Positions 575 to 40,027 of a DNA stretch of 50,345 nucleotides are shown here, in pieces (the stretch's first letter is position 1; each line of letters opens with the position of its first letter). Below the pieces are notes generated by a model. It saw nothing but the letters and a program-made list of their open reading frames with translations. It searched no databases and was not told the origin of the DNA. The position numbers were made by a program, and so were the translations under genes. Source of the stretch: Sulfobacillus benefaciens (GTDB lineage Bacteria; Bacillota; Sulfobacillia; Sulfobacillales; Sulfobacillaceae); the NCBI GenBank assembly GCA_003023725.1, contig PXYT01000022.1, positions 1-50,345 on the forward strand, in the 5' to 3' direction.

Positions 575-919
575 ATGTTTCTTTCTCCCAGGGAAAAAGA
601 AAAACTGCTGATTGTGGTCGCGGCAAATCTTGCCCGAACCCGTCTGGAACGGGGAATCAAGCTCAATTATCCCGAGGCCGTGGCCTATATCGCGGCACAC
701 CTTATGGAAGGAGCCCGGGAGGGGAAAACCGTGCCTGTCTTAATGACGGAAGGAGCTTCGTTATTGACGGTGGAGGATGTGATGGAAGGAGTGGCCGATA
801 TGGTGGATTCGGTTCAGATCGAAGCGACATTCCCGGACGGCACGAAACTGGTCACAGTTCACCACCCGATTCGTCCAGCCGCCCCTACATCCATGACCCG
901 GGTGGTGAACCAGGAATGA
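575..919 (+). CDS. ureA: Urease subunit gamma
   Basis: Small structural subunit (114 aa) of the nickel enzyme urease, which hydrolyses urea to ammonia and carbamate in the cytoplasm. The family pattern is clear from the start ([10 protein letters not shown], then [14 protein letters not shown], then [10 protein letters not shown]). It is slightly longer than the usual 100 aa because of a C-terminal tail. The start is fixed by the strong ribosome binding site AGGAGGGCAGG just upstream. The stop overlaps the ureB start by the ATGA arrangement. It is the first gene of ureABCEFGD. In an acidophile the ammonia released would help buffer the cytoplasm, which is inference. Confidence 0.96.
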
Positions 920-1287
920 TACCCGGAGAAATCCGCGTCAGCGAGGAGCCTCTTGTGACGGATAACGGTTCTGCGGTGCCTTTGGAAGTTTCCAATACCG
1001 GGGACCGTCCAATCCAGGTTGGTTCGCACTTTCATTTTTTTGAAGTCAACAAAGCTCTTAAATTTGCCCGCGATCAGGCTTATGGTATGCGTTTGGACAT
1101 TTTAGCCGGGACAGCGGTCCGCTTCGAGCCGGGCGTCAAGAAAACTGTCATGTTGACACCGGTTAACGGTCTGAGACGGGTCTATGGATTGAATGGCCTA
1201 ACGGAAGGATTCCTGGACGATCAGAGTACGAAAGACCGGGCCTTTGAGAAGGCGCGGCAACTCGGGTTCGGGGGAGAAGAATCATGA
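916..1287 (+). CDS. ureB: Urease subunit beta
   Basis: Second structural subunit of urease (123 aa), kept as a separate gene rather than fused to ureA. It begins [14 protein letters not shown] and has the family core [14 protein letters not shown] and [17 protein letters not shown]. It overlaps ureA and ureC by ATGA at both ends, so the three subunits are translationally coupled. It helps form the (alpha-beta-gamma)3 assembly. Length and sequence are ordinary for the family, and nothing is missing. Confidence 0.96.
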
Positions 1288-2999
1288 ATCCTCGGGTGGA
1301 TCGCCACCAACATGCGGCTCTCTATGGTCCCGGAGCCGGCGACCGGATTAGGCTTGCGGATACTGAATTGTGGGCTATGGTCGAGGAAGACCGGACTATC
1401 TGGAGTGAAGCGGCAAAATTTGGAGGTGGGAAGGTCGTTCGGGACGGCATGGGCCAGGCGGGCTGGCAAACCCGGACGGCGGGGGCTCCGGATTTGGTCA
1501 TCAGCAATGTTGTCATCATTGACTACTGGGGTATCGTCAAGGCAGATGTCGGCGTTAAAAATGGCCGCATTATTGCGATTGGAAAGGCTGGGAACCCAGA
1601 CATCATGGACGGCGTCGATCCCCGTTTAATTATTTCTCCTGGAACCGAGATGATTTCAGGAGAGGGGATGATTCTGACGGCGGGGGGCATTGATACGCAC
1701 GTCCACTGGATTACGCCCGATTTGTCCTTTCACGCGCTCAGTGCCGGCATGACCACGCTCATAGGGGGAGGCACGGGTCCCGCCACCGGTACCAACGCCA
1801 CCACGGCCACCCCAGGGGCGTGGTATATTGCCCGGATGCTGGAAGCCACGAGTGATATGCCCGTCAATATCGGTTTGACTGCTAAGGGCAACGCCTCGTT
1901 TGAGGAACCTTTGAGGGAGCAGGTAATGGCCGGCGCCATCGGTCTCAAGCTTCATGAGGACTGGGGAAGTACTCCCCGGGCCATTGATACTTGTCTCAAA
2001 GTTGCGGACCAGGAAGACGTGCAGGTTACCATTCACACTGACACCCTGAACGAGGCCGGATTTGTGGAACAGACCATTCAGGCCATTGATGGGCGAACCA
2101 TTCATACCTACCATACCGAGGGCGCCGGTGGGGGACATGCTCCTGACATACTGCGCATCGCGTCATTTAATCATGTTCTGCCATCCTCAACCAATCCGAC
2201 CCGGCCTTATACGCTCAATACCCTGGCGGAGCACATGGATATGCTGATGGTCTGTCATCATTTGGATCCTAAGCTTCCTGAAGACGTGGCTTTTGCGGAT
2301 TCGCGAATCCGGGGTGAGACTATTGGAGCCGAAGATGTTTTGCACGACATGGGTGTATTGTCCATGATGTCCTCTGATTCTATGGCTATGGGACGGATCG
2401 GTGAGGTGATTACCCGCACCTGGCAGACCGCAAGCAAAATGAAAAGTGAACGGGGGGCTTTGCCAGAAGACCAGGCGCTTCATGACAACTATCGGATCAA
2501 GCGATACATTGCCAAATACACCATTAACCCCGCTATTACCCATGGCATATCCGAACTGGTGGGGTCTGTAGAGGAGGGGAAATGGGCTGATCTGGTATTG
2601 TGGAAGCCAGCCTTTTTCGGGGTCAAACCATCCCTAATCATTAAAGGCGGAATGATTGTGGCGGCTCAGATGGGCGACGCTAACGCCTCAATTCCTACCG
2701 TAGAGCCCCGTTTCATGCGGGAAATGTTTGCAGCCCGGGGGCGAGCTGTCCGGGAATTGTCCTGGACATTCGTTTCAGCTAAAGCATATGACGCCGGGAC
2801 AGTCGGATCCCGATTGCAGCGAAGGCTTTATGCCGTCAAGAATTGCAGAAATCTGAGCAAACGGTCCATGATTTTGAATGACCAAACACCGGAAATTACC
2901 GTGGACCCCGAAACATACCGGGTTTACGCCAATGGTCAGTGGATTGTGTCGGCTCCGGCTGAAATTCTGCCCATGGCGCAAAGGTACTTTCTGTTTTGA
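1284..2999 (+). CDS. ureC: Urease subunit alpha (catalytic)
   Basis: Catalytic subunit (571 aa) holding the dinickel centre. Visible active-site elements are His139 and His141 (THVHW), the carbamylated lysine Lys222 with His224 (GLKLHEDWG), the His of HTDTLNE, the His-rich [15 protein letters not shown], the flap Cys324-His325 (MVCHH) and the Asp of SSDSMAMGR. All expected nickel ligands are present, so the enzyme should be active after maturation. The length is normal for the family. The start overlaps the ureB stop (ATGA). Maturation needs UreDEFG, all encoded directly downstream. Confidence 0.98.
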
Positions 3000-3038
3000 A
3001 TTTGGCTGGTTTGATAAAGACAAGACAAGGAGGACATC

Positions 3039-3503
3039 ATGGAGACGGTAACCGTCAATCGCGTTTTGGGATCCTATCTTCGAACCGGTGACGATTTGTG
3101 CAAAGAGGTCGAATGGGTGGACATGGATCATGATCACTGCGGGAAGGCTCGGTGGAAGGCTTTAAGCGACAAGGGGCGGGTGGTTCTTATTGATTTGCCC
3201 AGGAAGGTTCGGCTAGCGGACAAAGATGTTCTCTACGAGGACGAGACGCGGGTCATTGTGGCCCGGGTGAAACCGGAACAGGTATTGGTGATGAGGCCCA
3301 GAACAATCGAGGAAATGGGCGCATTATGTTATCATATCGGCAATTTGCACCAACCTTGCTGGGTAAATCAATCTCGGGTGTTCACCCCCAATGAATCCTT
3401 CCTCAAGGATCTGGCCCAGTCTATGGCGGTTCCTTTCTCCGAGGAGGAACAGATTCTTCCTCAGGGTTTTGCCACCCGACACCGTACCCACGCTGCCCCA
3501 TGA
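3039..3503 (+). CDS. ureE: Urease accessory protein UreE
   Basis: Nickel metallochaperone (154 aa) that delivers Ni to the UreDFG-apourease complex. The family pattern is visible in the N-terminal domain and in MGALCYHIGNLHQPCW, which includes the conserved metal-binding His of the C-terminal domain. The tail has only a few histidines (TRHRTHAAP), so it lacks the long His-rich nickel-storing tail of some homologues. A strong AAGGAGG lies upstream of the ATG. The stop overlaps the ureF start (ATGA). Confidence 0.94.
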   Translation: METVTVNRVLGSYLRTGDDLCKEVEWVDMDHDHCGKARWKALSDKGRVVLIDLPRKVRLADKDVLYEDETRVIVARVKPEQVLVMRPRTIEEMGALCYHIGNLHQPCWVNQSRVFTPNESFLKDLAQSMAVPFSEEEQILPQGFATRHRTHAAP

Positions 3504-4198
3504 TGACCGGAATTGGCAAAGGCGGTGAAATATTTCAGTTTATGGACGGCCTCTTTCCCTCGGGGGCTTTTACCCATTCTTTCGGACTTGAAACATTGGT
3601 TCAGGAAGGGTGGATACACGACGAGGCATCATCGAGGCAATGGATTCAGGCTATTATCCGTTACAACTGGGCCACCTCTGATGCTCTAGGAGCGTATCTG
3701 GTTTGGCAAGCGTCCGGTCGTTCGGATTTTTGGGAACAGGTCGTTGAAATTGATGGCTACTTGAGCGCGAGTCGCCCGGCCGAGGAAAGTCGCAGGGGCT
3801 CATTGCGTATTGGCCGCCGCATTCTTCTGACTGCCTGCGATCTGTTTGAGAATCCGGATTTGCTTAAGTACCGGGAGATGATCCATCTTGGCTCTCAACT
3901 CGGAAATCAAGCCGTAGTGTTGGCGGTAATCGGCGTGATCCGTGAGTGGGGGGAGAGTGTCGGGATGCAAGGACTGGCCTACGTCAGTCTCTCGGGGATG
4001 ATTCAAGCGCTGGTGCGGTTGGTACCCTTGGGGCAGAGAGAGGCCCAGAAATTGCTTTTTGACCTTCATCCTTATGTCCTGGAAGTGCTGGCAGATATTC
4101 GGGATCTGACGCTAGTGGATATAGGATCTTGCCTGCCTTTTTACGATGTGGCCACAATGCGCCACCGAGATTTGTACTCGCGGTTGTTTCGGTCGTAG
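3500..4198 (+). CDS. ureF: Urease accessory protein UreF
   Basis: All-helical accessory protein (232 aa) that acts with UreD and UreG in assembling the nickel centre and controls UreG GTPase activity. The family N-terminal pattern [17 protein letters not shown] is plain, and the C-terminal part ([12 protein letters not shown]) also fits. It overlaps ureE by ATGA. The gap to the most likely ureG start is about 38 bases, the only spaced accessory junction. Confidence 0.95.
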
Positions 4199-4236
4199 AC
4201 CGGACTGGCAGGATGTCAACGATTGGGGGAATGCAC

Positions 4237-4869
4237 ATGAAACCGGTAAGAATAGGGGTGGCAGGCCCCGTGGGTGCGGGAAAAACAACAGTGGTGCAGT
4301 GGCTGGCCGAGGCTTTAAGGGAAGAATACAGTATTGCGGTCATCACCAACGACATCTATACCAGAGAAGACGAACGCATTCTGGTGAACAGCCGGGTATT
4401 GCCTCCGGAACGCATCCTGGGTGTAGAGACTGGAGGGTGTCCGCATACGGCAATCCGAGAGGACGCTTCCGTCAACTTGGATGCGCTGGACGAGTTATGC
4501 GCCGCTTTTCCCGATTTGGATGTGGTGCTGATTGAGAGCGGGGGCGACAACTTGGCGGCCACTTTTAGTCCGGATTTGGCAGACTTCGTGATCTATGTGA
4601 TTGATGTAGCCGGAGGGGAAAAATTGCCGCGAAAAGGAGGACCTGGCATTATCAAGTCCGACGTACTGGTGATTAATAAAGTGGATTTGGCCGCCTACGT
4701 GGGAGCCGATTTAGACGTGATGGAAAAGGACACGCGGCAAATTCGCCGGGGCCCTTACGTGCTGACGAATTTAAAGACCGGTCAGGGAATGCCCCGGCTG
4801 TTGGATTTGGTACGCACGAACGCTTTGTTTGAGGAGCCGTGCGATTCTTCGCCTGCCAGTGCCAAATGA
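4237..4869 (+). CDS. ureG: Urease accessory GTPase UreG
   Basis: SIMIBI-class GTPase (210 aa) that powers nickel insertion into urease. The P-loop GPVGAGKTT is at residues 10-18, followed by the nickel-binding CPH motif ([11 protein letters not shown]) and the ESGGDN motif. The open frame extends upstream into ureF, but ATG 4237 is preceded by GGGGGA and gives the usual UreG length; ATG 4231 or 4213 are less likely alternatives. The stop overlaps the ureD start by ATGA. All functional motifs are intact. Confidence 0.95.
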
Positions 4870-25330: not shown

Positions 25331-25849
25331 ATGGCATCTCAACGCATTCCGGTGACTCTCACAATCAATGGCCAAAAGATCGTCCGAGATATAGAACCTC
25401 GAACACTTTTGGTTCATTTTTTGCGGGACGAACTCAATTTAACCGGGACACACGTCGGCTGCGATACCTCGCAGTGCGGCGCTTGCACCATTTTGCTTGA
25501 CAATCAAGCGGTGAAGTCGTGTACGGTACTGGCGATACAAGCTGATGGCTCCGAAATCGTTACGGTGGAAGGCTTGGAACAGGAACAATTGCATCCGATT
25601 CAAGAAGCATTTCGAGAAAAACATGGTCTGCAGTGTGGCTTTTGCACCCCTGGTGCCATGATGCTGGGGGCTTATTTATTGAATCACAATGGACCTTTGA
25701 CGGAAGAAACCATTCGTGAGCAACTTGACGGGCTGTTGTGCCGGTGTACGGGCTATGAAAATATCGTCCGGTCCATTCAGCGGGCCAACGAAATCATGAA
25801 TGAAAGGCAAAACGCTCAACAGGCCGCACGCGCTACGGGAGTGGGGTAG
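25331..25849 (+). CDS. coxS: CO-dehydrogenase-type small subunit (two [2Fe-2S] clusters)
   Basis: Iron-sulfur subunit (172 aa) of a molybdenum hydroxylase. The plant-type [2Fe-2S] cysteines are Cys44, Cys49, Cys52 and Cys64 (GCDTSQCGAC...C), and the second cluster uses Cys102, Cys105, Cys137 and Cys139 (CGFC...CRC). It passes electrons from the Mo site to FAD. AAAGGAGGAG lies before the ATG. It is first in the operon, with L and M subunits following. Its length is normal for the family. Confidence 0.94.
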   Translation: MASQRIPVTLTINGQKIVRDIEPRTLLVHFLRDELNLTGTHVGCDTSQCGACTILLDNQAVKSCTVLAIQADGSEIVTVEGLEQEQLHPIQEAFREKHGLQCGFCTPGAMMLGAYLLNHNGPLTEETIREQLDGLLCRCTGYENIVRSIQRANEIMNERQNAQQAARATGVG

Positions 25850-25935
25850 ATTTCAACAAATACAATCCTTGAGGCATCTTTCGGATCGACCACGAGAGAG
25901 AAACAAGGGAAAAAAGCAAAAAGAGGTGAAAGAAT

Positions 25936-28299
25936 ATGACCCAGGTTATGGGACAGGCAGTGAAGCGTCACGAAGACATCCGATTAATCAGAGGTCAGGG
26001 ACAGTACACCGACGACATGAAACTTCCCGGAATGGTGTATGCCTATATTGTGCGCAGCCCCTATGCTCATGCCAGAATTACGGAAATCAACACGTCTCGT
26101 GCCGCAAGCATGCCCGGAGTGGTGGCGGTTTTCACCGGACGGGATGTAAAAGACGAAGTGGGGCTCATCCCTACCGCCTGGATTCCGCCGGATGCTGACT
26201 TGAAAGTCACTCCGCATTCCGTTTTAGCGTATGATGAAGTTCGCTATCAGGGAGACGGGGTGGCGGTGGTCATTGCCGAAACGCCTTATTTGGCTCAGGA
26301 CGCTGCATTGGCGGTTGACGTCAAATACGAATCCCTGCCGGTTGTCACCGATCCTTTTGAGGCGCAGAAAGACGGGGCGCCCCAGGTCCACACGGACATT
26401 CCCAACAACATTGCTTTTCACTGGAAAGCGGGGGAAAATCTTGACGAAATTTTTGCCGGTGCCGAAGTGGTCGTCAAGCAGCATTTTCGTCAGCAACGTC
26501 TTATCCCCAGTGCCATGGAGCCCCGCTCGGCCCTGGCTCAGTATCATGCCGCCCAGGGGGAGTTGACGTTGTGGGCGACCACGCAGAATCCTCATATCCA
26601 CCGTCTGTTGATGTCCGGCATACTAGGTATCCCGGAACACAAACTGCGCGTGATCGCCATTGACGTAGGGGGAGCATTTGGCAGTAAGATCGCGTGTTAT
26701 CCGGACGAGGTTATCGTCTCCTGGGCGAGTAAAAAACTCAACCGTCCTGTCAAGTGGACGGAAACCCGTCAGGAAAATTTTCAGGTGACCACGCATGGCC
26801 GCGACCATGTCCAAGAAGTGGAACTGGCCGGAACTCGGGACGGCCAAATCCAGGCTATCCGTGTGAAAACCTATGCCAATATGGGAGCCTACTTGTCTAC
26901 CGCCGCACCAGGAGTCCCAACCATTTTGTTTGGACTGATTGTTAATGGGGCTTACAAAATTCCTCATGCGTCATCGGAGGTGTTGGGCGTTCTCACTCAT
27001 ACGACTCCAGTGGATGCCTACCGCGGGGCGGGACGGCCAGAAGCCACGTTTTTGGTGGAAAGAATGGTGGATCTGTATGCCGGAGCTGTGCAAATGGATC
27101 CGTTGAAGGTACGGGAAAAAAATCTGATTCGACACGAAGACTTTCCTTATACCAATGCATTCGGTCTTCAGTATGATAGCGGAAACTATCAGGAGACAGT
27201 GTCCAAAGCTCTTCAAATCTTTGATTATCCGGCTTTCCGTCGGGAACAGGAAACTTTGCGCAAGCAGGGAAAGTACATCGGAGTTGGCTTCAGCACCTAT
27301 GTGGAGATGTGCGGCCTAGGTCCGTCAGAGGTTGCCGGTGCTGTCGGCTTTCAGGGGGGGTTGTGGGAAAGTGCAACCGTCAGGGTTCACCCTACCGGCA
27401 AGGTGAGTGTCTTTACCGGAGCATCCCCTCATGGGCAGGGTGAAGAGACGACTTTTGCCCAAATTGTGGCAGAAGAACTCGGTATCCCTGTGGACGACAT
27501 CGAAGTGATTCATGGGGACACGGCGCAAATTGCCATGGGATGGGGAACTTACGGATCGCGAACGACAGCTGTAGGCGGAGCCGCTATTCATATGGCCAAT
27601 GAAAAAATCCTTGAAAAGGCCCGCAAGATTGCGGCTCACAAACTGGAAGTCAACGAAGAGGACGTGACTTATGACAGCGGAGTATTTTCGGTCCGGGGTC
27701 TGCCGTCCAAGGGCGTGACGTTTCAGGAAGCGGCACTCGACGCTTACTTGGCTTGGAACTTGCCCCCTGGAATGGAACCGGCGCTAGAAGGGACTGCGTT
27801 TTATAATCCTAAGAATTTTACCTACCCATTCGGCGCCCATATCGCCGTGGTGTCGGTAGATCCCGAAACCGGTGATGTGAAACTACTGCGCTATGTGGCC
27901 GTAGATGATGTTGGCCGCATCATTAATCCGATGATAGTCGAGGGGCAAATCCACGGGGGACTGGTTCAAGGAATTGGCCAGGCGTTGTGGGAAGGCGCTG
28001 AATTCGACAACCAAGGTCAGCTCGTCACCGGATCTTTTTTGGATTATACGGTGCCTAAGGCCCGGTTTTTCCCCAAATTTGAAACGGCTCACACCGAAAC
28101 CCCTTCGCCTCACAACCCCCTGGGAGTCAAGGGTGTCGGCGAAACCGGAGCTATTGCCTCCACACCGTGTATCGTCAATGCGGTTATGGATGCTTTAAGG
28201 CCGTTTGACATCCAGGACTTGCCCATGCCGCTCACCCCACAAAAAGTGTGGCAGGCGATTCGTCAGGCACAGACCAAAGAACCAGCTGAAAGCAAATAA
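25936..28299 (+). CDS. coxL: Form II CO-dehydrogenase-like molybdenum large subunit
   Basis: Molybdopterin-cytosine-dinucleotide subunit (787 aa) of the xanthine oxidase family. The active-site loop reads AYRGAGR (residues 361-367), the form II signature. True CO dehydrogenases (form I) have AYxCSFR with the Cu-binding Cys, so CO oxidation is not assured; an aldehyde, purine or other N-heterocycle is possible. GGAFGSK, SPHGQGEETTFAQI and the C-terminal GVKGVGETGA also match the family. It has an AGAGGTG-type ribosome binding site and starts 86 bases after coxS. Confidence 0.9.
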   Translation: MTQVMGQAVKRHEDIRLIRGQGQYTDDMKLPGMVYAYIVRSPYAHARITEINTSRAASMPGVVAVFTGRDVKDEVGLIPTAWIPPDADLKVTPHSVLAYDEVRYQGDGVAVVIAETPYLAQDAALAVDVKYESLPVVTDPFEAQKDGAPQVHTDIPNNIAFHWKAGENLDEIFAGAEVVVKQHFRQQRLIPSAMEPRSALAQYHAAQGELTLWATTQNPHIHRLLMSGILGIPEHKLRVIAIDVGGAFGSKIACYPDEVIVSWASKKLNRPVKWTETRQENFQVTTHGRDHVQEVELAGTRDGQIQAIRVKTYANMGAYLSTAAPGVPTILFGLIVNGAYKIPHASSEVLGVLTHTTPVDAYRGAGRPEATFLVERMVDLYAGAVQMDPLKVREKNLIRHEDFPYTNAFGLQYDSGNYQETVSKALQIFDYPAFRREQETLRKQGKYIGVGFSTYVEMCGLGPSEVAGAVGFQGGLWESATVRVHPTGKVSVFTGASPHGQGEETTFAQIVAEELGIPVDDIEVIHGDTAQIAMGWGTYGSRTTAVGGAAIHMANEKILEKARKIAAHKLEVNEEDVTYDSGVFSVRGLPSKGVTFQEAALDAYLAWNLPPGMEPALEGTAFYNPKNFTYPFGAHIAVVSVDPETGDVKLLRYVAVDDVGRIINPMIVEGQIHGGLVQGIGQALWEGAEFDNQGQLVTGSFLDYTVPKARFFPKFETAHTETPSPHNPLGVKGVGETGAIASTPCIVNAVMDALRPFDIQDLPMPLTPQKVWQAIRQAQTKEPAESK

Positions 28300-28335
28300 G
28301 GCTCGCAATGATATACCACCGAGAGATAGGAGGTT

Positions 28336-29214
28336 ATGAATGTGTACACGGCACCCTTTGAATACCGAAGAGCAGATACGGTAGAACAGGCCATAGGCTG
28401 GCTCGCGAACGACCCGGAAAACAGCAAGGTCTTGGCGGGCGGGCACAGTCTGCTGCCTCTGATGAAGCTGGTTCTGGCACAACCGCAGGTTCTAATCGAT
28501 ATCGGGCGGATAACGGCCCTGAAAGGGATCCGGATTGAGGGCGATGATGTGCAAATTGGGGCGTTCACCACATACCGGGAGATCGTCGAAAGCCCCGAAG
28601 TGAACGAATTCTGTCCTCTTTTAGCCCAGGCTGCGCAGACCGTCGGAGATGTTCAGGTGCGTAATCGCGGTACTATTGGCGGCAGTCTGTGCCACGCTGA
28701 TCCCCAGGCTGATATGCCTGCGGCGGTTTTGGCTCTGGATGCCGAACTCTTGATTGAAGGACCTTCTGGGCAGCGCACACAGTCTATCGACGGGTTTTTT
28801 CTTGCCCCTTTCATCACTTCGCTCGCCCCCGGCGAGATTTTGACGGCCGTGAAGATCCCTAAATTGCCCGCTGGGGCGCACACTACGTATCTCAAACGTC
28901 CGCATCCCGCATCCGGTTATCCTCTGGTTGGGGTCGGAATATGGTTGACAGTTCACGATCAGGTGATAGACAACGGTCATATCGGCATCACGGGTATTGC
29001 CGATTTGCCGTTCCGGGCCCGGCATCTGGAAGATTTTCTTAAAGGGCGTCTGTTAGATGCCGCCACCATTGCCCAGGCGGGTCCTCTGGCCGCAGACGAC
29101 GCCAATTTGGACGACGATCCGTACAAGAAGAACCTTCTGCAGGTGTACGTCACTCGGGCCTTGTCTCAATTCGGGGAATCATTCGCGGCAAAGGGACTCA
29201 ATGGCAAATCTTGA
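28336..29214 (+). CDS. coxM: CO-dehydrogenase-type FAD subunit
   Basis: Flavoprotein subunit (292 aa) that takes electrons from the iron-sulfur subunit and passes them to the respiratory chain. FAD-binding motifs AGGHSLLPLMK and NRGTIGGSLCHADP are present, and the C-terminal CO_deh_flav_C region follows. ATAGGAGG stands directly before the start. The 3' end overlaps coxD by 14 bases. Confidence 0.92.
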   Translation: MNVYTAPFEYRRADTVEQAIGWLANDPENSKVLAGGHSLLPLMKLVLAQPQVLIDIGRITALKGIRIEGDDVQIGAFTTYREIVESPEVNEFCPLLAQAAQTVGDVQVRNRGTIGGSLCHADPQADMPAAVLALDAELLIEGPSGQRTQSIDGFFLAPFITSLAPGEILTAVKIPKLPAGAHTTYLKRPHPASGYPLVGVGIWLTVHDQVIDNGHIGITGIADLPFRARHLEDFLKGRLLDAATIAQAGPLAADDANLDDDPYKKNLLQVYVTRALSQFGESFAAKGLNGKS

Positions 29215-30112
29215 CCGGATTGAAGACGTGATGCAACAATTGTCGCACCAACAGTATCTGGCCGATAGGTCTTTGGCCACGGCGATCTTTCTGTGCCTGA
29301 AACTGGAACGTCCTCTTTTTCTTGAAGGGGAACCAGGGGTAGGCAAGACGGCCGTGGCCCAGGCCATGGCTCAGGTGTTGAATGTTCCCTTAATTCGTCT
29401 GCAATGCTACGAGGGCATCGACCGAGAGAGTGCGTTGTACGAGTGGAACTATCCCAAGCAGTTATTGGCTATTCGCTTGCACGAAAGTTCGGCGCAGGGT
29501 GGTTTGACACTGGGTCAAGACTCCCTGTATCAAACCGAATTTCTGCTCAAGCGTCCGTTGTTCGAGGCCTTGGCACCCGAGGGGCCGGCACCTGTGCTAT
29601 TAATTGACGAAATTGATCGTAGTGATGATGAATTTGAGGCATTTTTGCTGGAGATTTTGTCGGAATTCCAGATTAGTATTCCCGAACTCGGTACGATTAA
29701 GGCGAAAGAAAAGCCTTTTATTGTCCTCACGTCCAACCGCACGCGGGACATTCATGACGCGCTGAAACGCCGTTGCATTTATCACTGGCTCGACTATCCG
29801 TCTTTTGAACGGGAACTTGAAATTGTGGAGTTGAAAGTCCCGGGTTTGGACGGAAAGTTGCGCCGCGACATCGTCCGATTCATCCAGCGGTTTAGACGGG
29901 AGGGCTTTGACAAGAGGCCAGGAATTGCCGAGACCCTGGACTGGGCCAATGCTTTGGAAGCGCTGGTGACGAGGAGCCTGTCCCCGGAGGTCATAACCGA
30001 TACCCTGGGTGTTCTCTTAAAGGATCGGGAAGATCTGAAACTGGTTCAAGAAGAGGAATTGATCGAGCGCATTCTGAAGGAGCTTGAAGCCGATGACACC
30101 TCTCTCTGGTAA
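29201..30112 (+). CDS. coxD: MoxR-type AAA ATPase (CoxD-like)
   Basis: AAA+ ATPase (303 aa) of the MoxR group. Walker A is GEPGVGKT (residues 43-50), Walker B is VLLIDEIDRSDDE, and sensor 1 is VLTSNRTRDIHD. Together with the VWA protein CoxE, such ATPases mature the CoxL active site. The longest frame starts inside coxM at 29057; ATG 29201 starts where the family starts (MANLDRIEDV). It overlaps both neighbours. Confidence 0.92.
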   Translation: MANLDRIEDVMQQLSHQQYLADRSLATAIFLCLKLERPLFLEGEPGVGKTAVAQAMAQVLNVPLIRLQCYEGIDRESALYEWNYPKQLLAIRLHESSAQGGLTLGQDSLYQTEFLLKRPLFEALAPEGPAPVLLIDEIDRSDDEFEAFLLEILSEFQISIPELGTIKAKEKPFIVLTSNRTRDIHDALKRRCIYHWLDYPSFERELEIVELKVPGLDGKLRRDIVRFIQRFRREGFDKRPGIAETLDWANALEALVTRSLSPEVITDTLGVLLKDREDLKLVQEEELIERILKELEADDTSLW

Positions 30113-31193
30113 TTTATGGGCCTTAGCACGATCTTTGCGCCACTGGGGTTTTACCTTGGGGGTGTCAGACTTGAAAGATGCAGAAACCGCGTTACTGATT
30201 ACTCAGGATTTTTCTCTGACCGGCATTCATGATGTCGTCGAAGGATTATGGGTCCGATCTTATAACGAAAAGCGTATTTTCGATCACGCTTTTGCAATTT
30301 GGGCACTGGAACTCGCAGGAACGCCATTCGTAGCCGGCCCTCCTTCGTGGTTCTCCCAGTTGCCTAAAAAGGCGATGGGGCCGAGGCGGGTGGTGTGGAT
30401 GTCCCGGAAAGAGGCGGGGGGAATGGCGGCTACAGCCAATCAAACGTTATGGACCAGCACGCACACCGCCAGTGCCGAGGAAGCGAATTCGGCTAAAAGG
30501 CCGGAAGAAAATGACTATCCGATTCCCGACTTCTTGCCCGTGGAACACCATTACCGCAAGGGGTACCGAAGACGCCCGGCGCGAAAAGGCCGAGTATGGA
30601 ATGTGCCCAAAACACTCAGAAAAAGTTTAAGTTCCGGTGAATTGATCAAGTGGTATTATCAGGCTGAACGCCCCAAATGGCGGTCAACGGTATTTTTGTG
30701 GGATGTGAGCCAGTCCATGGCGCCGTTTATTCCCCTGTTTTTCCGGTTTTTTTATGGGCTGTCCAAATTTGGGGAACGGGTCGATGTGTGGGGGTTTAGT
30801 ACCCGCTTGACGCACCTCAACCCGATTTGGGAACATCGTAATCCGGCTTTGGCCTATCAGGCGCTGTTCCGTCAGGTTCCTGACTTGGGAGGTGGGACCC
30901 GGCTTGAGCACACGCTCTTGACTTTCGGTTCACAATCCAAGTCTCGTCTGCGCCATGATACCGATATCGTTTTAATTACCGACGGCTATGAGAGCGGAGA
31001 ATGTGCCCGGCTTGATGGGGTACTTTCGCGGCTAAAGCGGCGGTGCCGTCGGTTAAACTGGTGGAATCCATGGTATTTGACGCCGCACTACGAAATTGTC
31101 AGCCAGGCAGGACAGATTCTTCGCCGTTATTGTCGGGTGCAGAAAGCGGGAACGATGGAGGATTGTCTCTATTCTTGGTCGCAATTAGCGTAA
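30093..31193 (+). CDS. coxE: VWA-domain protein (CoxE-like)
   Basis: Von Willebrand A-domain protein (366 aa), the usual partner of the CoxD ATPase in maturing the Mo/Cu or Mo centre. The MIDAS pattern DxSxS is WDVSQSM, with Asp at about residue 204. LITDGYESGEC, near residue 300, is the second metal-site loop. Start ATG 30093 has AAGGAG ten bases upstream and overlaps the coxD stop. The N-terminal half is a CoxE-type helical region. Confidence 0.88.
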   Translation: MTPLSGNLWALARSLRHWGFTLGVSDLKDAETALLITQDFSLTGIHDVVEGLWVRSYNEKRIFDHAFAIWALELAGTPFVAGPPSWFSQLPKKAMGPRRVVWMSRKEAGGMAATANQTLWTSTHTASAEEANSAKRPEENDYPIPDFLPVEHHYRKGYRRRPARKGRVWNVPKTLRKSLSSGELIKWYYQAERPKWRSTVFLWDVSQSMAPFIPLFFRFFYGLSKFGERVDVWGFSTRLTHLNPIWEHRNPALAYQALFRQVPDLGGGTRLEHTLLTFGSQSKSRLRHDTDIVLITDGYESGECARLDGVLSRLKRRCRRLNWWNPWYLTPHYEIVSQAGQILRRYCRVQKAGTMEDCLYSWSQLA

Positions 31194-31237
31194 CAGGCAT
31201 CTAACAATACTCGAATCCGGGAAAGGACTGGTGTTTT

Positions 31238-31684
31238 ATGCAACTGTCCGGAAACAAACACATTCCAGCATCCATTGACAAAGCTTACACTTTATTGACC
31301 GATCCGGAGGTACTGACGCGCACAATGCCGGGCCTGAAACGGTTAACGCCCATTTCGGAAGGTGCGTATGCCGCCGACCTCGAAATGGGAGTCGCGGCCA
31401 TTAAGGGCAAATATCAGGGAACAATGCGGATCGAGGATGCCAGCCCACCCCATTCTTACCGACTGGTTCTGGATGGCCAGGGGCCGGGGGGGTTCGTTTC
31501 TGTGAATATGTCCGTCGAATTCGTTTCAGACGGTGACGAAGCGTCCGTAAGTTATCAGGGAGAAGCGCAGGTGGGAGGAACGATTGCATCGATGGGTCAG
31601 CGCATGATTTCGGGCGTGGCCAACTATTTGACGAATCAGTTTTTCCAAAACGTCGCCAAAGAGGCTATACAGGCCAAGAATTAA
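31238..31684 (+). CDS. coxG: CoxG-like SRPBCC protein
   Basis: Small START/SRPBCC-fold protein (148 aa) of the CO-dehydrogenase subunit G family (MQLSGNKHIPASIDKAY, LLTDPEVLTRTMPGL, LEMGVAAIKGKYQGTM). In characterised cox systems CoxG helps attach the enzyme to the membrane through a C-terminal tail. This protein is short and seems to lack a hydrophobic C-terminal anchor (it ends FFQNVAKEAIQAKN), so any membrane link would need another partner. AAAGGA lies before the start. Confidence 0.9.
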   Translation: MQLSGNKHIPASIDKAYTLLTDPEVLTRTMPGLKRLTPISEGAYAADLEMGVAAIKGKYQGTMRIEDASPPHSYRLVLDGQGPGGFVSVNMSVEFVSDGDEASVSYQGEAQVGGTIASMGQRMISGVANYLTNQFFQNVAKEAIQAKN

Positions 31685-37091: not shown

Positions 37092-37529
37092 TCAAGGAGA
37101 TTCCGCATGGCACTTTTCACACTGTCCATAGATATCGACCTTGTGTCCCATAACCCTTACTCCTGTGCCCTCCAGACTCTTGTCCAGAGCCGTGTCAACT
37201 CGTCCCGCCGGAAGATCCTGAACGGCCCCGCAGTCCAGACAAATAAAATGGTGATGATGGGACGAGAATGGCGGAATCAGCTCATAACCGACCACTCCGT
37301 CGTGGAGCAACACCGTTTGCACGACTGCCACAGCCAAAAACTGTTCCAGTGTTCGATAAACAGTGGCCTGATTCACGCCGTCCTCAGCCACCATGCTGAT
37401 TAAGACGGGAACGGAGACGGGTTTCCCCGCATCCGCCAAGGCGCGAAATATGCGCAGGCGGTCGGGGGTAAACCGTAATCCACGTGTTCGCAGCAATATT
37501 TTTAAATGGTCTTCTGCACTTCTCTCCAT
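37092..37529 (-). CDS. Fur-family metal regulator (candidate Nur)
   Basis: Metal-responsive repressor (145 aa). It has the winged-helix N-terminal half (RGLRFTPDRLRIFRAL, NQATVYRTLEQF) and the metal-binding part: the His-rich SSHHHHFICLDCG and a second CxxC (CEKC) near the end, the structural zinc site. It lies 19 bases downstream of the probable nickel transporter in the same direction, so the two form an operon. The Nur-box-like site upstream supports a nickel-sensing role; Zur, Fur or PerR are alternatives. Confidence 0.85.
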   Translation of the reverse strand: MERSAEDHLKILLRTRGLRFTPDRLRIFRALADAGKPVSVPVLISMVAEDGVNQATVYRTLEQFLAVAVVQTVLLHDGVVGYELIPPFSSHHHHFICLDCGAVQDLPAGRVDTALDKSLEGTGVRVMGHKVDIYGQCEKCHAESP

Positions 37530-37548: not shown

Positions 37549-38451
37549 CTAATGCTGCAGTGAATGTTGCGCCGATTTGGCCTGCCGTGCCCAGTACCGG
37601 GTTTGCTGAATGAGTGTGGTCAGTCCAATACCCATGACCGAGACCACTACCAGGATAAAGGCAATGCCCAGTCTGTCCAAATTGTGAACGTGAATGCCTG
37701 TTGATATGCTGAGTTGGGCGAACTTAGGCAATGCCAGCCCTATTATGCCTCCGGCGATAAAAGCAATGCCACCCCATCTCAGTGTACGTCCTGCAGTCAC
37801 CAACGCAACCTTCTGAGTGGCTTCCGGAGGTAATCCCAACCGTTGGCTAATCCATCCAAAAAGCGCACCTGCGAGCGCCTGCATGACGGTGGTGCCGAGC
37901 CCGAACAAAGCACCCGGGACCCATCCCCATGCGGCTGACGGCATAGCTGGAGCCAGTACCGTGTAGATAATAATCGCGAAAGCGCCGAAACCCCAACCCG
38001 CAATAAATCCATGGACTAGAGGCATCCACGGTTTAGGTGCATTGACCGTGGCCCCCCTGTTCGGTTCCATTTTGTGAGAGCGCCGAAGAGACAGATGCCA
38101 GTGCTTTCCTTGAAGAATATAACGGCCAGCCCACACCATGGCAACGCCCACGACCAGATACACCACGTAGTCGACTGGACTTCCGAGGGTGAACCATTTG
38201 TCCAAGGCCAAATATGCCAGCTCGCTGGCGATTGCCCGTTGGAGTGTGAATGCGGCGGAAAAAGTCAGTCCCGCCATTAAGCCCTTTTTTGTGGAGTAAC
38301 TGCCTATTGCGTAGCTAAAGGTAATAGGCCAGGTGTGTTCATCAGGCGTAATGCCATGAACCATACCCAAAAGAAATGCCGTGGCCAGAGCTGTGGTCCA
38401 GATAATGCCGGCGTGTGGATCCCAAAGGTTTAACATGCTTGCGCACCCCAT
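37549..38451 (-). CDS. Probable nickel/cobalt transporter
   Basis: Polytopic membrane protein (300 aa, about seven or eight segments). The first segments contain GMVHGITPDEHTW, an H-x4-D-E-H pattern close to the H-x4-D-H metal signature of nickel/cobalt permeases, and conserved glycines follow. It is paired with a Fur-family regulator, and a Nur-box-like site precedes it. Nickel for the urease encoded in this window is a logical use. ATG 38436 (MLNLWDPHAG) is an alternative start. The exact permease family is uncertain. Confidence 0.65.
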   Translation of the reverse strand: MGCASMLNLWDPHAGIIWTTALATAFLLGMVHGITPDEHTWPITFSYAIGSYSTKKGLMAGLTFSAAFTLQRAIASELAYLALDKWFTLGSPVDYVVYLVVGVAMVWAGRYILQGKHWHLSLRRSHKMEPNRGATVNAPKPWMPLVHGFIAGWGFGAFAIIIYTVLAPAMPSAAWGWVPGALFGLGTTVMQALAGALFGWISQRLGLPPEATQKVALVTAGRTLRWGGIAFIAGGIIGLALPKFAQLSISTGIHVHNLDRLGIAFILVVVSVMGIGLTTLIQQTRYWARQAKSAQHSLQH

Positions 38452-38457
38452 TCGTTA

Positions 38458-38474
38458 TTGCGATTTTATTGCAA
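38458..38474 (-). promoter_or_regulatory. Candidate Nur box
   Basis: On the plus strand the sequence is TTGCGA-TTTTA-TTGCAA, one base from the TTGCAA-N5-TTGCAA consensus of Nur (nickel uptake regulator) sites known in Streptomyces. It lies 7 bases upstream of the longest transporter frame. A nickel-loaded Fur-family protein bound here would block transcription of the transporter-regulator operon. Confidence 0.5.
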
Positions 38475-38532
38475 GAACAAGATATCATGAAGAGAAGGAA
38501 AAAGCAATAGACGATGACGGGAAATATGCGTG

Positions 38533-38587
38533 TTGACAACGAGTCAGAACAAAATGTAACCTGGGTGCAAATGCAAGAGACTTGCAT
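38533..38587 (+). promoter_or_regulatory. Probable promoter and palindromic operator of APC permease
   Basis: TTGACA (38533-38538) is a perfect -35 element, with TGTAAC 16 bases later as a moderate -10. Downstream, ATGCAAG-AGA-CTTGCAT (38571-38587) is a perfect 7-bp palindrome overlapping the likely leader just before the permease start, a plausible repressor site. Confidence 0.45.
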
Positions 38588-38593
38588 GTGGAG

Positions 38594-40027
38594 ATGATTC
38601 GCGTGGAGGATGTGAGACCCAATGATTTGACCCCAAACGTGGTCGGGTTTTGGGGACTGGTGAGTCAAAGTCTGGCGGGCATGGCGCCGACGTGCGACGT
38701 GGTGGCATTTATGACGGCCGGAGCGGCTTTTGCCCTGGTGGCACTGCCTCTGTCGTATTTATGGGCCTTTGGATTAATGTTTATTGAAGTCAATACGTTG
38801 TATCACTTGTCTAAAAACCGGGCAGGAGCCGGCGGATATTACAGTTATGTCTCTTCGGGACTGGGACCGGGGGCCGCCTTGGTGACCGGATTCATGGTGA
38901 GCTTTTACCAAGTTTTCAGTATGGCTGGAATTCCCGTGTATGTGGGTGGGGTGTTTCTGCCTGGTTTAGCTCATCACGTCGGATTGACGTTGCCCAGCTG
39001 GTTTTGGATCGTGGCCGTGTTGTTTTTCATCGGTGTTCCCTGGATGCTGGGAATTATGGGAATCGGTCCCAGTATCAGAGTGCTGGCGACGACCAGTCTT
39101 ACCGAAATAATTTTTCTGATTGCAGCCTCGCTCATTATCATCACACGGGCACATTCCGGACATCCTTTCAAACCCTTTCACGTGGGAAAGGTTGGATATA
39201 AAGGAGTGGCGCGGGGTATGATCTTCGCCATTACCAGTTTCATTGGCATTGGCAGTCATGCTTCTCTCGGTGAAGAGACGAAGGGGGTGCAGACACAAAA
39301 GGGCAGGCTAATCGGGAAGGCCGCGCTCGTGTCGCTGACACTGGTGGGTGCTGCCCTGACGATGTCCGCCTATGCTTTAACCGTGGGATGGGGAGAAAAC
39401 AAAATGGGAAGCTTTGCCACGGCTCGCGCTCCTGGGGTTACGGTGTTTTTGCATTATTTAGGACCTATTGGAGCCGTGGCTCTGGTCGTTTTGGCCATTA
39501 ATAGCGCGCTTATGGACAGTCTGGCTCTGTTAACCAGTTCGTCCCGTGTGTTATATGCCATCGGGCGGGACGAGCTAATCAGTGCCCGGTTTGCCCAGGT
39601 GAACGGGAGCCGGGCTCCCGCCAAGAGTGTGACCTTGTTGGCTATGCTGGCAGTCGCGGTGGGTTTAGGCACGGGATTGTGGCTGGGGCCGGGGGAAGCC
39701 TTCAATGTCATGACGACGGCGGTATTATTTGGACTGGTCACCGCCCACACTCTCATGAACATTTCTCTGATGCGGTTGTTCCGGGATGAAAAGAAACCGG
39801 CTCACGCCGTCCAGCACTTTGTTTTGCCGTTTCTAGCCACGGGACTCTTCTGGTGGGTTCTTTATGAATCAGTATGGCCCATTAACTTGCCGCTTAGCTG
39901 GTCTGTGGTTATTTGGGCTGCCGTGCTAATTCCGGTTATTGTCTATGTCCTGGTGGTGATCCGCGGCATGGGCTCCGCCGAGGGACGTCAGCTGGGAATT
40001 CGCAAGACTCAGCCTCCAGTGATCTAG
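38594..40027 (+). CDS. APC-family amino acid permease
   Basis: Cytoplasmic-membrane transporter (477 aa, about twelve segments) of the amino acid-polyamine-organocation superfamily. The N-terminal segment carries SQSLAGMAPTCDVV, followed by GAGGYYSYVSSGLGPG, which match the substrate-binding helices of the family, and ITSFIGIGSHASLGEETKG, which corresponds to the F/Y-x-G-x-E stretch of TM6. The start is uncertain: TTG 38582, ATG 38594 or GTG 38612 (with GGAGG). The substrate is not predictable; it is divergent from the nickel transporter. Good candidates are amino acids or amines. Confidence 0.88.
   Translation: MIRVEDVRPNDLTPNVVGFWGLVSQSLAGMAPTCDVVAFMTAGAAFALVALPLSYLWAFGLMFIEVNTLYHLSKNRAGAGGYYSYVSSGLGPGAALVTGFMVSFYQVFSMAGIPVYVGGVFLPGLAHHVGLTLPSWFWIVAVLFFIGVPWMLGIMGIGPSIRVLATTSLTEIIFLIAASLIIITRAHSGHPFKPFHVGKVGYKGVARGMIFAITSFIGIGSHASLGEETKGVQTQKGRLIGKAALVSLTLVGAALTMSAYALTVGWGENKMGSFATARAPGVTVFLHYLGPIGAVALVVLAINSALMDSLALLTSSSRVLYAIGRDELISARFAQVNGSRAPAKSVTLLAMLAVAVGLGTGLWLGPGEAFNVMTTAVLFGLVTAHTLMNISLMRLFRDEKKPAHAVQHFVLPFLATGLFWWVLYESVWPINLPLSWSVVIWAAVLIPVIVYVLVVIRGMGSAEGRQLGIRKTQPPVI

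Follow-up and report, generated by a model that had tools for sequence, protein, structure and literature searches.

A conserved Nur-like operator at a predicted metal-uptake operon of Sulfobacillus benefaciens and its relatives

The transporter-regulator operon and its two boxes

The window analysed here, a 50,345-nt stretch of the Sulfobacillus benefaciens genome (G000), contains a two-gene operon on the minus strand and, facing it, a divergent permease gene. The first gene of the operon (P0002; 37549-38436, minus strand) encodes a UreH-like membrane transporter that probably starts at the ATG at 38436, where its orthologues start, with an alternative start at 38451. It matches Pfam DsbD_2 (PF13386), the family that we take to cover UreH, at 34.1 bits (cut-off 24.9) over residues 91-207 only, and such a match (E up to 0.01) is found in 10 of 21 members of the transporter family. 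Besides the DsbD_2 match, it may share with UreH-type secondary nickel transporters an H-x6-H motif with acidic residues (read by eye), and it differs from them in a motif of its own, HGITPDEHTWPITFSY. The transporter has no NCBIfam match, its family has no PDB sequence relative at E up to 1, and a fold search with its structure model (pLDDT 72) returned no match at E 0.001 or below.

The second gene begins 19 bp past the transporter stop (37092-37529, minus strand) and encodes P0001, a Fur-family regulator (PF01475, 65.4 bits, cut-off 23.1) with the recognition helix GVNQATVYR, which bears out the claim of an earlier note on this DNA that the operon also encodes a Fur-family protein. The AlphaFold model of P0001 has a mean pLDDT of 90 and, by eye, a Fur-like order of helices and strands, and PDB sequence relatives include Fur, PerR, Zur, and Nur chains. 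Its FUR domain and predicted winged-helix plus dimer fold place P0001 in the Fur superfamily, and its clade is found in many of the examined genomes. The divergent gene (38594-40027, plus strand, start codon inferred) encodes an APC-type amino-acid permease (PF00324), a predicted member of the same regulon, for which no PDB sequence relative was found at E up to 0.001.

The gap between the two divergent genes carries two boxes. Box 1 (38458-38474) is TTGCGATTTTATTGCAA, or TTGCAATAAAATCGCAA when read on the minus strand, and has the form TTGCGA-N5-TTGCAA exactly as the earlier note had written it. It lies 21 bp from the probable transporter start and is the predicted operator of the transporter-fur operon. 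The note had described it as upstream of a probable nickel transporter; what follows it is a UreH-like probable metal transporter, the nickel part of that description not being established. Box 1 begins 4 bp past the -10 element of a putative promoter (38479-38507, minus strand; TTGCTT-17-TATCTT, a weak match read by eye) and covers the probable start site, a position that would fit a repressor. As evidence for this promoter, the string CATGATATxTTGT recurs in five orthologues (L005, L006, L007, L009, and L010). Box 2 (38571-38587; ATGCAAGAGACTTGCAT), absent from the earlier note, is the predicted operator of the divergent permease; it sits ten bp past a putative permease promoter (38533-38560, plus strand; TTGACA-16-TGTAAC, likewise weak and read by eye) and is followed by the permease gene. 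A consensus promoter scan listed neither putative promoter.

Only two perfect TGCRA-N5-TYGCA cores occur in the window (38459-38473 and 38572-38586), and both fall in the 142-bp transporter-permease gap, a length taken from the alternative start at 38451. When the gap was base-shuffled 20,000 times, at least one perfect site arose in 0.02% of cases and two in none. Copies with up to two mismatches occur at chance level (5 in the window vs. 5.67 expected), so that sequence alone would not prove the site. The genome-wide motif search that the earlier note had proposed found WTGCRA-N5-TYGCAW at 12 places in G000, against 2 for the backwards control. Besides the two window sites there are ten places, eight of them within reading frames of at least 265 aa and two (L034 and L120) in ORFs of just 90 and 118 aa, which may not be genes. 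Reconstructing a G000 regulon from the motif alone therefore gained little.

Conservation of the box in related genomes

Conservation was assessed in a set of 61 genomes, 36 of which have relatives of the transporter, by searching 200 bp before each match and 20 bp inside it, with the window's own loci included. The earlier note had made the presence of the site upstream of orthologues one of its tests, and a perfect TGCRA-N5-TYGCA box is indeed present at 18 of the 24 transporter loci with at least 59% identity. It is likewise found at 11/16 permease loci, ten of these being places besides that of the window, at 7/13 loci of an SQR-like flavoprotein, and at 5/24 more distant transporter loci. 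The backwards control gave 0 in each of these four sets. When every 5-mer inverted repeat with a gap of 0-12 was ranked by frequency (13,312 in total), TGCAA-N5-TTGCA came first without a tie in the close-transporter, permease, and SQR-like sets and shared first place in the distant-transporter set. Permease loci L245, L252, L255, and L258 were dropped (broken frame, contig edge, partial, 36% identity), leaving 16 of 20, as was SQR-like locus L270 (33% identity), leaving 13 of 14; the base table of 22 boxes covers 22 of the 24 close transporter loci, with G032 and G047 omitted.

Perfect boxes are missing at 6 of the 24 close transporter loci, 19 of the 24 distant ones, 5 of the 16 permeases, and 6 of the 13 SQR-like loci. 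Four of the six close loci (L085, L094, L098, and L099) have a box with one mismatch at the expected place, L095 has two mismatches, and L093 has one mismatch in the box but a Zur-like partner. A second transporter paralogue of the window genome (G000:C73) is without a box. A different conserved string, GCAAAAAGGTTTCA, stands about 110-130 bp before a box-less transporter relative at L069, L072, L073, L102, and L113, with the variant ACAAAAAGGTTTCA at L113; Rfam gave no match at this string. Neither the window nor nine loci with box-less or distant relatives of the transporter yielded a riboswitch above the Rfam gathering score.

The SQR-like gene was picked up by a pattern scan of five genomes, which gave 20 places. 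By eye, 14 of these fall within reading frames, and six are located between genes or ahead of one: the transporter of G003, the SQR-like genes of G003 and G005, a permease of G005, L219 (G035), and L235 (G005), the last with no clear gene. Automated classification had flagged L219, L222, and L227 as inside ORFs owing to upstream alternative starts; starts were moved downstream on the basis of orthologue starts for L222 and L227 and of a ribosome-binding-site-like stretch for L219. At L219 (1501-1517, G035) a perfect Nur-type box stands just ahead of this stretch and of a small gene (MILNLTPHALQL...). The SQR-like protein belongs to the pyridine-nucleotide-disulphide oxidoreductases and is a relative of type III sulfide:quinone reductase, with a score under the curated cut-off. 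A Nur-type box precedes its gene at seven genomic places (among L222, L224, L259-L264, and L267), and the window's own genome has no orthologue at E 1e-50.

The box is kept with the permease in other genera even when the permease is not beside the transporter. G005 has no transporter match and carries perfect boxes on one of its two permeases and on the SQR-like gene, the boxed permease arguing that the box follows the gene and not the neighbourhood. In G001, permease and SQR-like gene are both boxed in a genome with no transporter or urease match, no hydrogenase over the cut-off, and weak LarA-type matches (E 9.4e-8). Together, the boxes of G005 and G001 indicate that the regulon does not depend on transporter, urease, or hydrogenase. 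The draft genome G026 has boxed or near-boxed targets, and no close P0001 orthologue was found in it (best E 3.6e-16). Where the regulator gene lies away from the transporter, a perfect-core box precedes it in 2 of 17 loci (G011 and G015), which would fit autoregulation there; at the other 15, none was found even with one mismatch allowed.

We considered whether the motif could be there by chance and have no role, as might be argued from the low background of such sites in coding sequence within one genome. The conservation of the boxes rules this out, and with their position and their recurrence before three gene families also against it, we regard a chance motif as extremely improbable. Judged from sequence, the boxes form a conserved multi-gene regulon. 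Among open-licence papers, none turned up that treats a Nur-type regulon of Sulfobacillus or the transporter motif.

Regulator residue 53 and operator type

In Streptomyces coelicolor, the Fur-family protein Nur responds to nickel, represses nikABCDE and sodF, and has the consensus operator TTGCAA-N5-TTGCAA. The window sites match the Nur form (tTGCaa-N5-ttGCAA), and, as with Nur, the operator overlaps the promoter, although here the one is predicted and the other putative. P0001 also shares with Nur an Asn at the start of the recognition helix, an HHxH region, and two CxxC pairs. On these features the system appears to work like Nur at the DNA level. It differs from Nur in its predicted targets, namely the UreH-like transporter, the APC permease, and, in relatives, the SQR-like flavoprotein. 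NikR belongs to a different protein family from P0001 and uses a different operator. In NikR regulons, nickel-uptake genes are under a metal-bound repressor, according to a review (PMC7055735), an arrangement that is putative here.

The Asn is residue 53, common to P0001 (GVNQATVYR) and Nur (GINISTVYR), whereas the Fur chains compared have Gly at this position (GLATVYR, GIATVYR). In the AlphaFold model of P0001, residue 53 directly precedes helix 54-66; the equivalent helix of Escherichia coli Zur and its Arg65 touch DNA (PMC4219657).

The relation between residue 53 and the operator was surveyed in 80 loci, the best 80 of 581 confirmed, whose titles include Bacillota, Actinomycetes, Proteobacteria, Dormiibacterota, and Thermotoga. 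Forty-seven linked regulators were judged, the minus-strand regulator of L129, the unlinked regulator of L145, and L161 (N run) being set aside, and a Nur-like box was defined as GCAA-N5-TTGC or TGCRA-N5-TYGCA. Among these best 80 of 581 loci, every linked regulator with Asn or Asp at position 53 has a Nur-like box with at most one mismatch at its operon promoter (36/36, of which 33 are perfect), a count that does not represent 36 independent cases since near-duplicates occur among the loci (e.g., L189/L190, L149/L153, and L171/L175/L177) and about three regulator clades are involved. Regulators with Gly at 53 have a Nur-like box in none of nine cases and a 7-1-7 box with up to two mismatches in four of the nine. 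Of the two remaining regulators, that of L194 (Ala at 53) has a perfect GCAA-N5-TTGC and that of L176 (His at 53) has none. Base-shuffled upstream regions gave a one-mismatch box in 6.6% and a zero-mismatch box in 0.1%. A Zur ligand, the Cys before HHxH, is present in all nine Gly-type linked regulators of this sample, the other 38 having Glu.

Both the operator patterns and position 53 were picked after viewing the same sequences, and because of this and the small number of clades, we put the position-53 code forward as a hypothesis. We see about an even chance that transporters with the HGITPDEHTWP motif and their Fur-family regulators form an unrecognised multi-phylum metal-uptake group in which residue 53 sets the operator (GCAA-N5-TTGC for Asn or Asp, 7-1-7 for Gly). 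Nur would then be one long-known Asn case, and the Asn-type regulon of the Sulfobacillus relatives would join metal uptake, an amino-acid permease, and an SQR-like enzyme.

Several surveyed loci show other arrangements upstream of fur. At L133 and L139 a TGAGAATGATTATCA box precedes a Zur-like regulator gene, behind which comes a member of the same transporter family, and Athalassotoga (L199) has AGAAAATTATTTTCT. At L140, L143, L147, L149, L172, and L189, loci titled Actinomycetes, Dormiibacterota, or bacterium, fur is preceded by overlapping boxes in tandem with a spacing of about 13 bp, GCAA-N5-TTGCGCAA-N5-TTGC, an arrangement that suggests binding of two or more dimers.

The metal, the proposed regulation, and its implications

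That nickel is the metal sensed is a guess, to which we give somewhat less than even odds. The Nur-type box and the UreH-like transporter speak for it. The histidines of the Nur metal sites are H33, H70, H72, H86, H88, H90, and H126 in Nur numbering, and of these seven P0001 keeps just the equivalents of H88 and H90, the others being K, T, L, S, and K, respectively. Nur itself has a four-His and a three-His site, according to PMC7055735. The ligand positions thus place P0001 outside the Nur group and largely rule out a true Nur, a nickel sensor with the metal sites of Nur shared horizontally or vertically with actinobacteria. The form of the box and Asn53 of the helix speak for such a regulator, as does the mostly nickel-transporting UreH family (PMC2667541); against it, Nur (3eyy) ranks only eighth among the solved relatives of P0001, and seventh by profile, behind chains named Fur or PerR. 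With five of the seven histidines replaced, we consider a true Nur very improbable.

Nickel enzymes offer no positive link. With cut-offs of E below 1e-40 for urease, below 1e-50 for the NiFe hydrogenase family, and below 1e-40 for LarA, at least one nickel enzyme was counted by hand in 13 of the 36 genomes with the transporter and in 14 of the 25 without it; in 23 of the 36 transporter-bearing genomes, neither urease nor a strong match to NiFe hydrogenase or LarA turned up. A search for SodN matched 0/61 genomes, and it did not pick up its controls either.

Urease genes do occur in the window, as had been claimed: ureA, ureB, ureC, and ureG score over NCBIfam cut-offs at 575-4866, together with a UreE-like protein under its cut-offs and two further ORFs without an NCBIfam match. 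Control of urease by the box was rejected, no site with up to one mismatch being found in the 574 bases between the start of the contig and ureA; any promoter farther away would lie outside the contig. An Rfam match to the 5' ureB sRNA lies antisense to the urease alpha gene (1437-1733, minus strand) and may reflect only urease coding similarity. Elsewhere in the window (25331-31684), a gene cluster resembles, by eye, a molybdoenzyme of the aerobic CO dehydrogenase/xanthine dehydrogenase type, accompanied by MoxR- and CoxG-like neighbours.

What stands of the earlier proposal of Nur-box nickel control in a Firmicute is a conserved, Nur-like operator of a probable metal-uptake operon in these acidophiles; nickel is not established, given the missing Nur histidines, the absence of a ureA box and of a nickel-enzyme link, and the Zur-like partners of the transporter elsewhere. 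These partners bring in zinc. P0001 could be a Zur with unusual ligands whose transporter takes up zinc, the Nur-like operator being a shared solution to reading DNA. Zur belongs to the same superfamily, and Zur-like regulators appear to control the same transporter family in other lineages, with 7-1-7 boxes in L133 and L139 and weaker ones in L186 and L199. The Cys of the nine Gly-type regulators stands in a Y-x-x-C before HHxH, and the transporter is not tied to nickel enzymes. G000 has three FUR matches only, and since the other two best match NCBIfam Fur and PerR, under curated cut-offs, P0001 is a candidate Zur by elimination. However, P0001 has Glu83 where Zur has Cys, as do all 36 Asn/Asp-type linked regulators among the best 80 of 581 loci, and its predicted operator is GCAA-N5-TTGC, the form of Nur, not the 7-1-7 box; by Cys ligand and operator alike it would fall outside the Zur group. 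The permease and the SQR-like enzyme are, moreover, not usual Zur targets. We therefore think zinc sensing unlikely.

Alternatively, the regulator might sense cobalt, manganese, or iron, and the UreH-like protein might transport that same metal. Together with HHxH, the conserved Glu looks like a Fur-type site. By eye, the transporter neighbourhood gave little clue to the metal, consisting mostly of generic genes, Nramp-family genes aside. In several genomes the latter are found close to the transporter or regulator gene or diverge from it (G009, G017, G018, and L189/L190, and after the regulator in G015, by eye), an example being L108:2887-4212 (minus strand; PF01566, motif GENDAPSM), with the like in L107, L109, L189, and L190 and, by eye, in L066. 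The Nramp-like protein nevertheless appears by eye to be without the canonical metal-site motifs of Nramp transporters. A UreH relative of Moritella is tied to cobalt by its gene neighbourhood (PMC2667541). We rate this reading, too, as unlikely.

Whichever metal is involved, we favour, at a probability of roughly 0.6, the reading that the two Nur-type boxes are operators for P0001, which as a metal-bound dimer would repress both the transporter-fur operon and the permease. When metal is plentiful, each box would be occupied by a metal-bound P0001 dimer lying across the start site, which would block transcription of the transporter-regulator operon, including its own gene (autoregulation), as well as the divergent amino-acid permease. 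When metal is scarce, P0001 would leave the boxes, and the transporter operon and permease would be expressed. The Lys at the position of Nur H33 in P0001, which bears on how metal would close the dimer, counts against this model.

Fur-family proteins are hard to separate by sequence, and their metal specificity is usually guessed from neighbouring genes. The present case is a warning that the box alone is no ground for calling nickel control. If the operator code is true, a one-residue marker of operator type would allow regulons to be mapped across acidophiles and uncultured phyla, and a Nur-type regulon outside the actinobacteria without the Nur ligands would mean that operator and metal specificity evolve separately.
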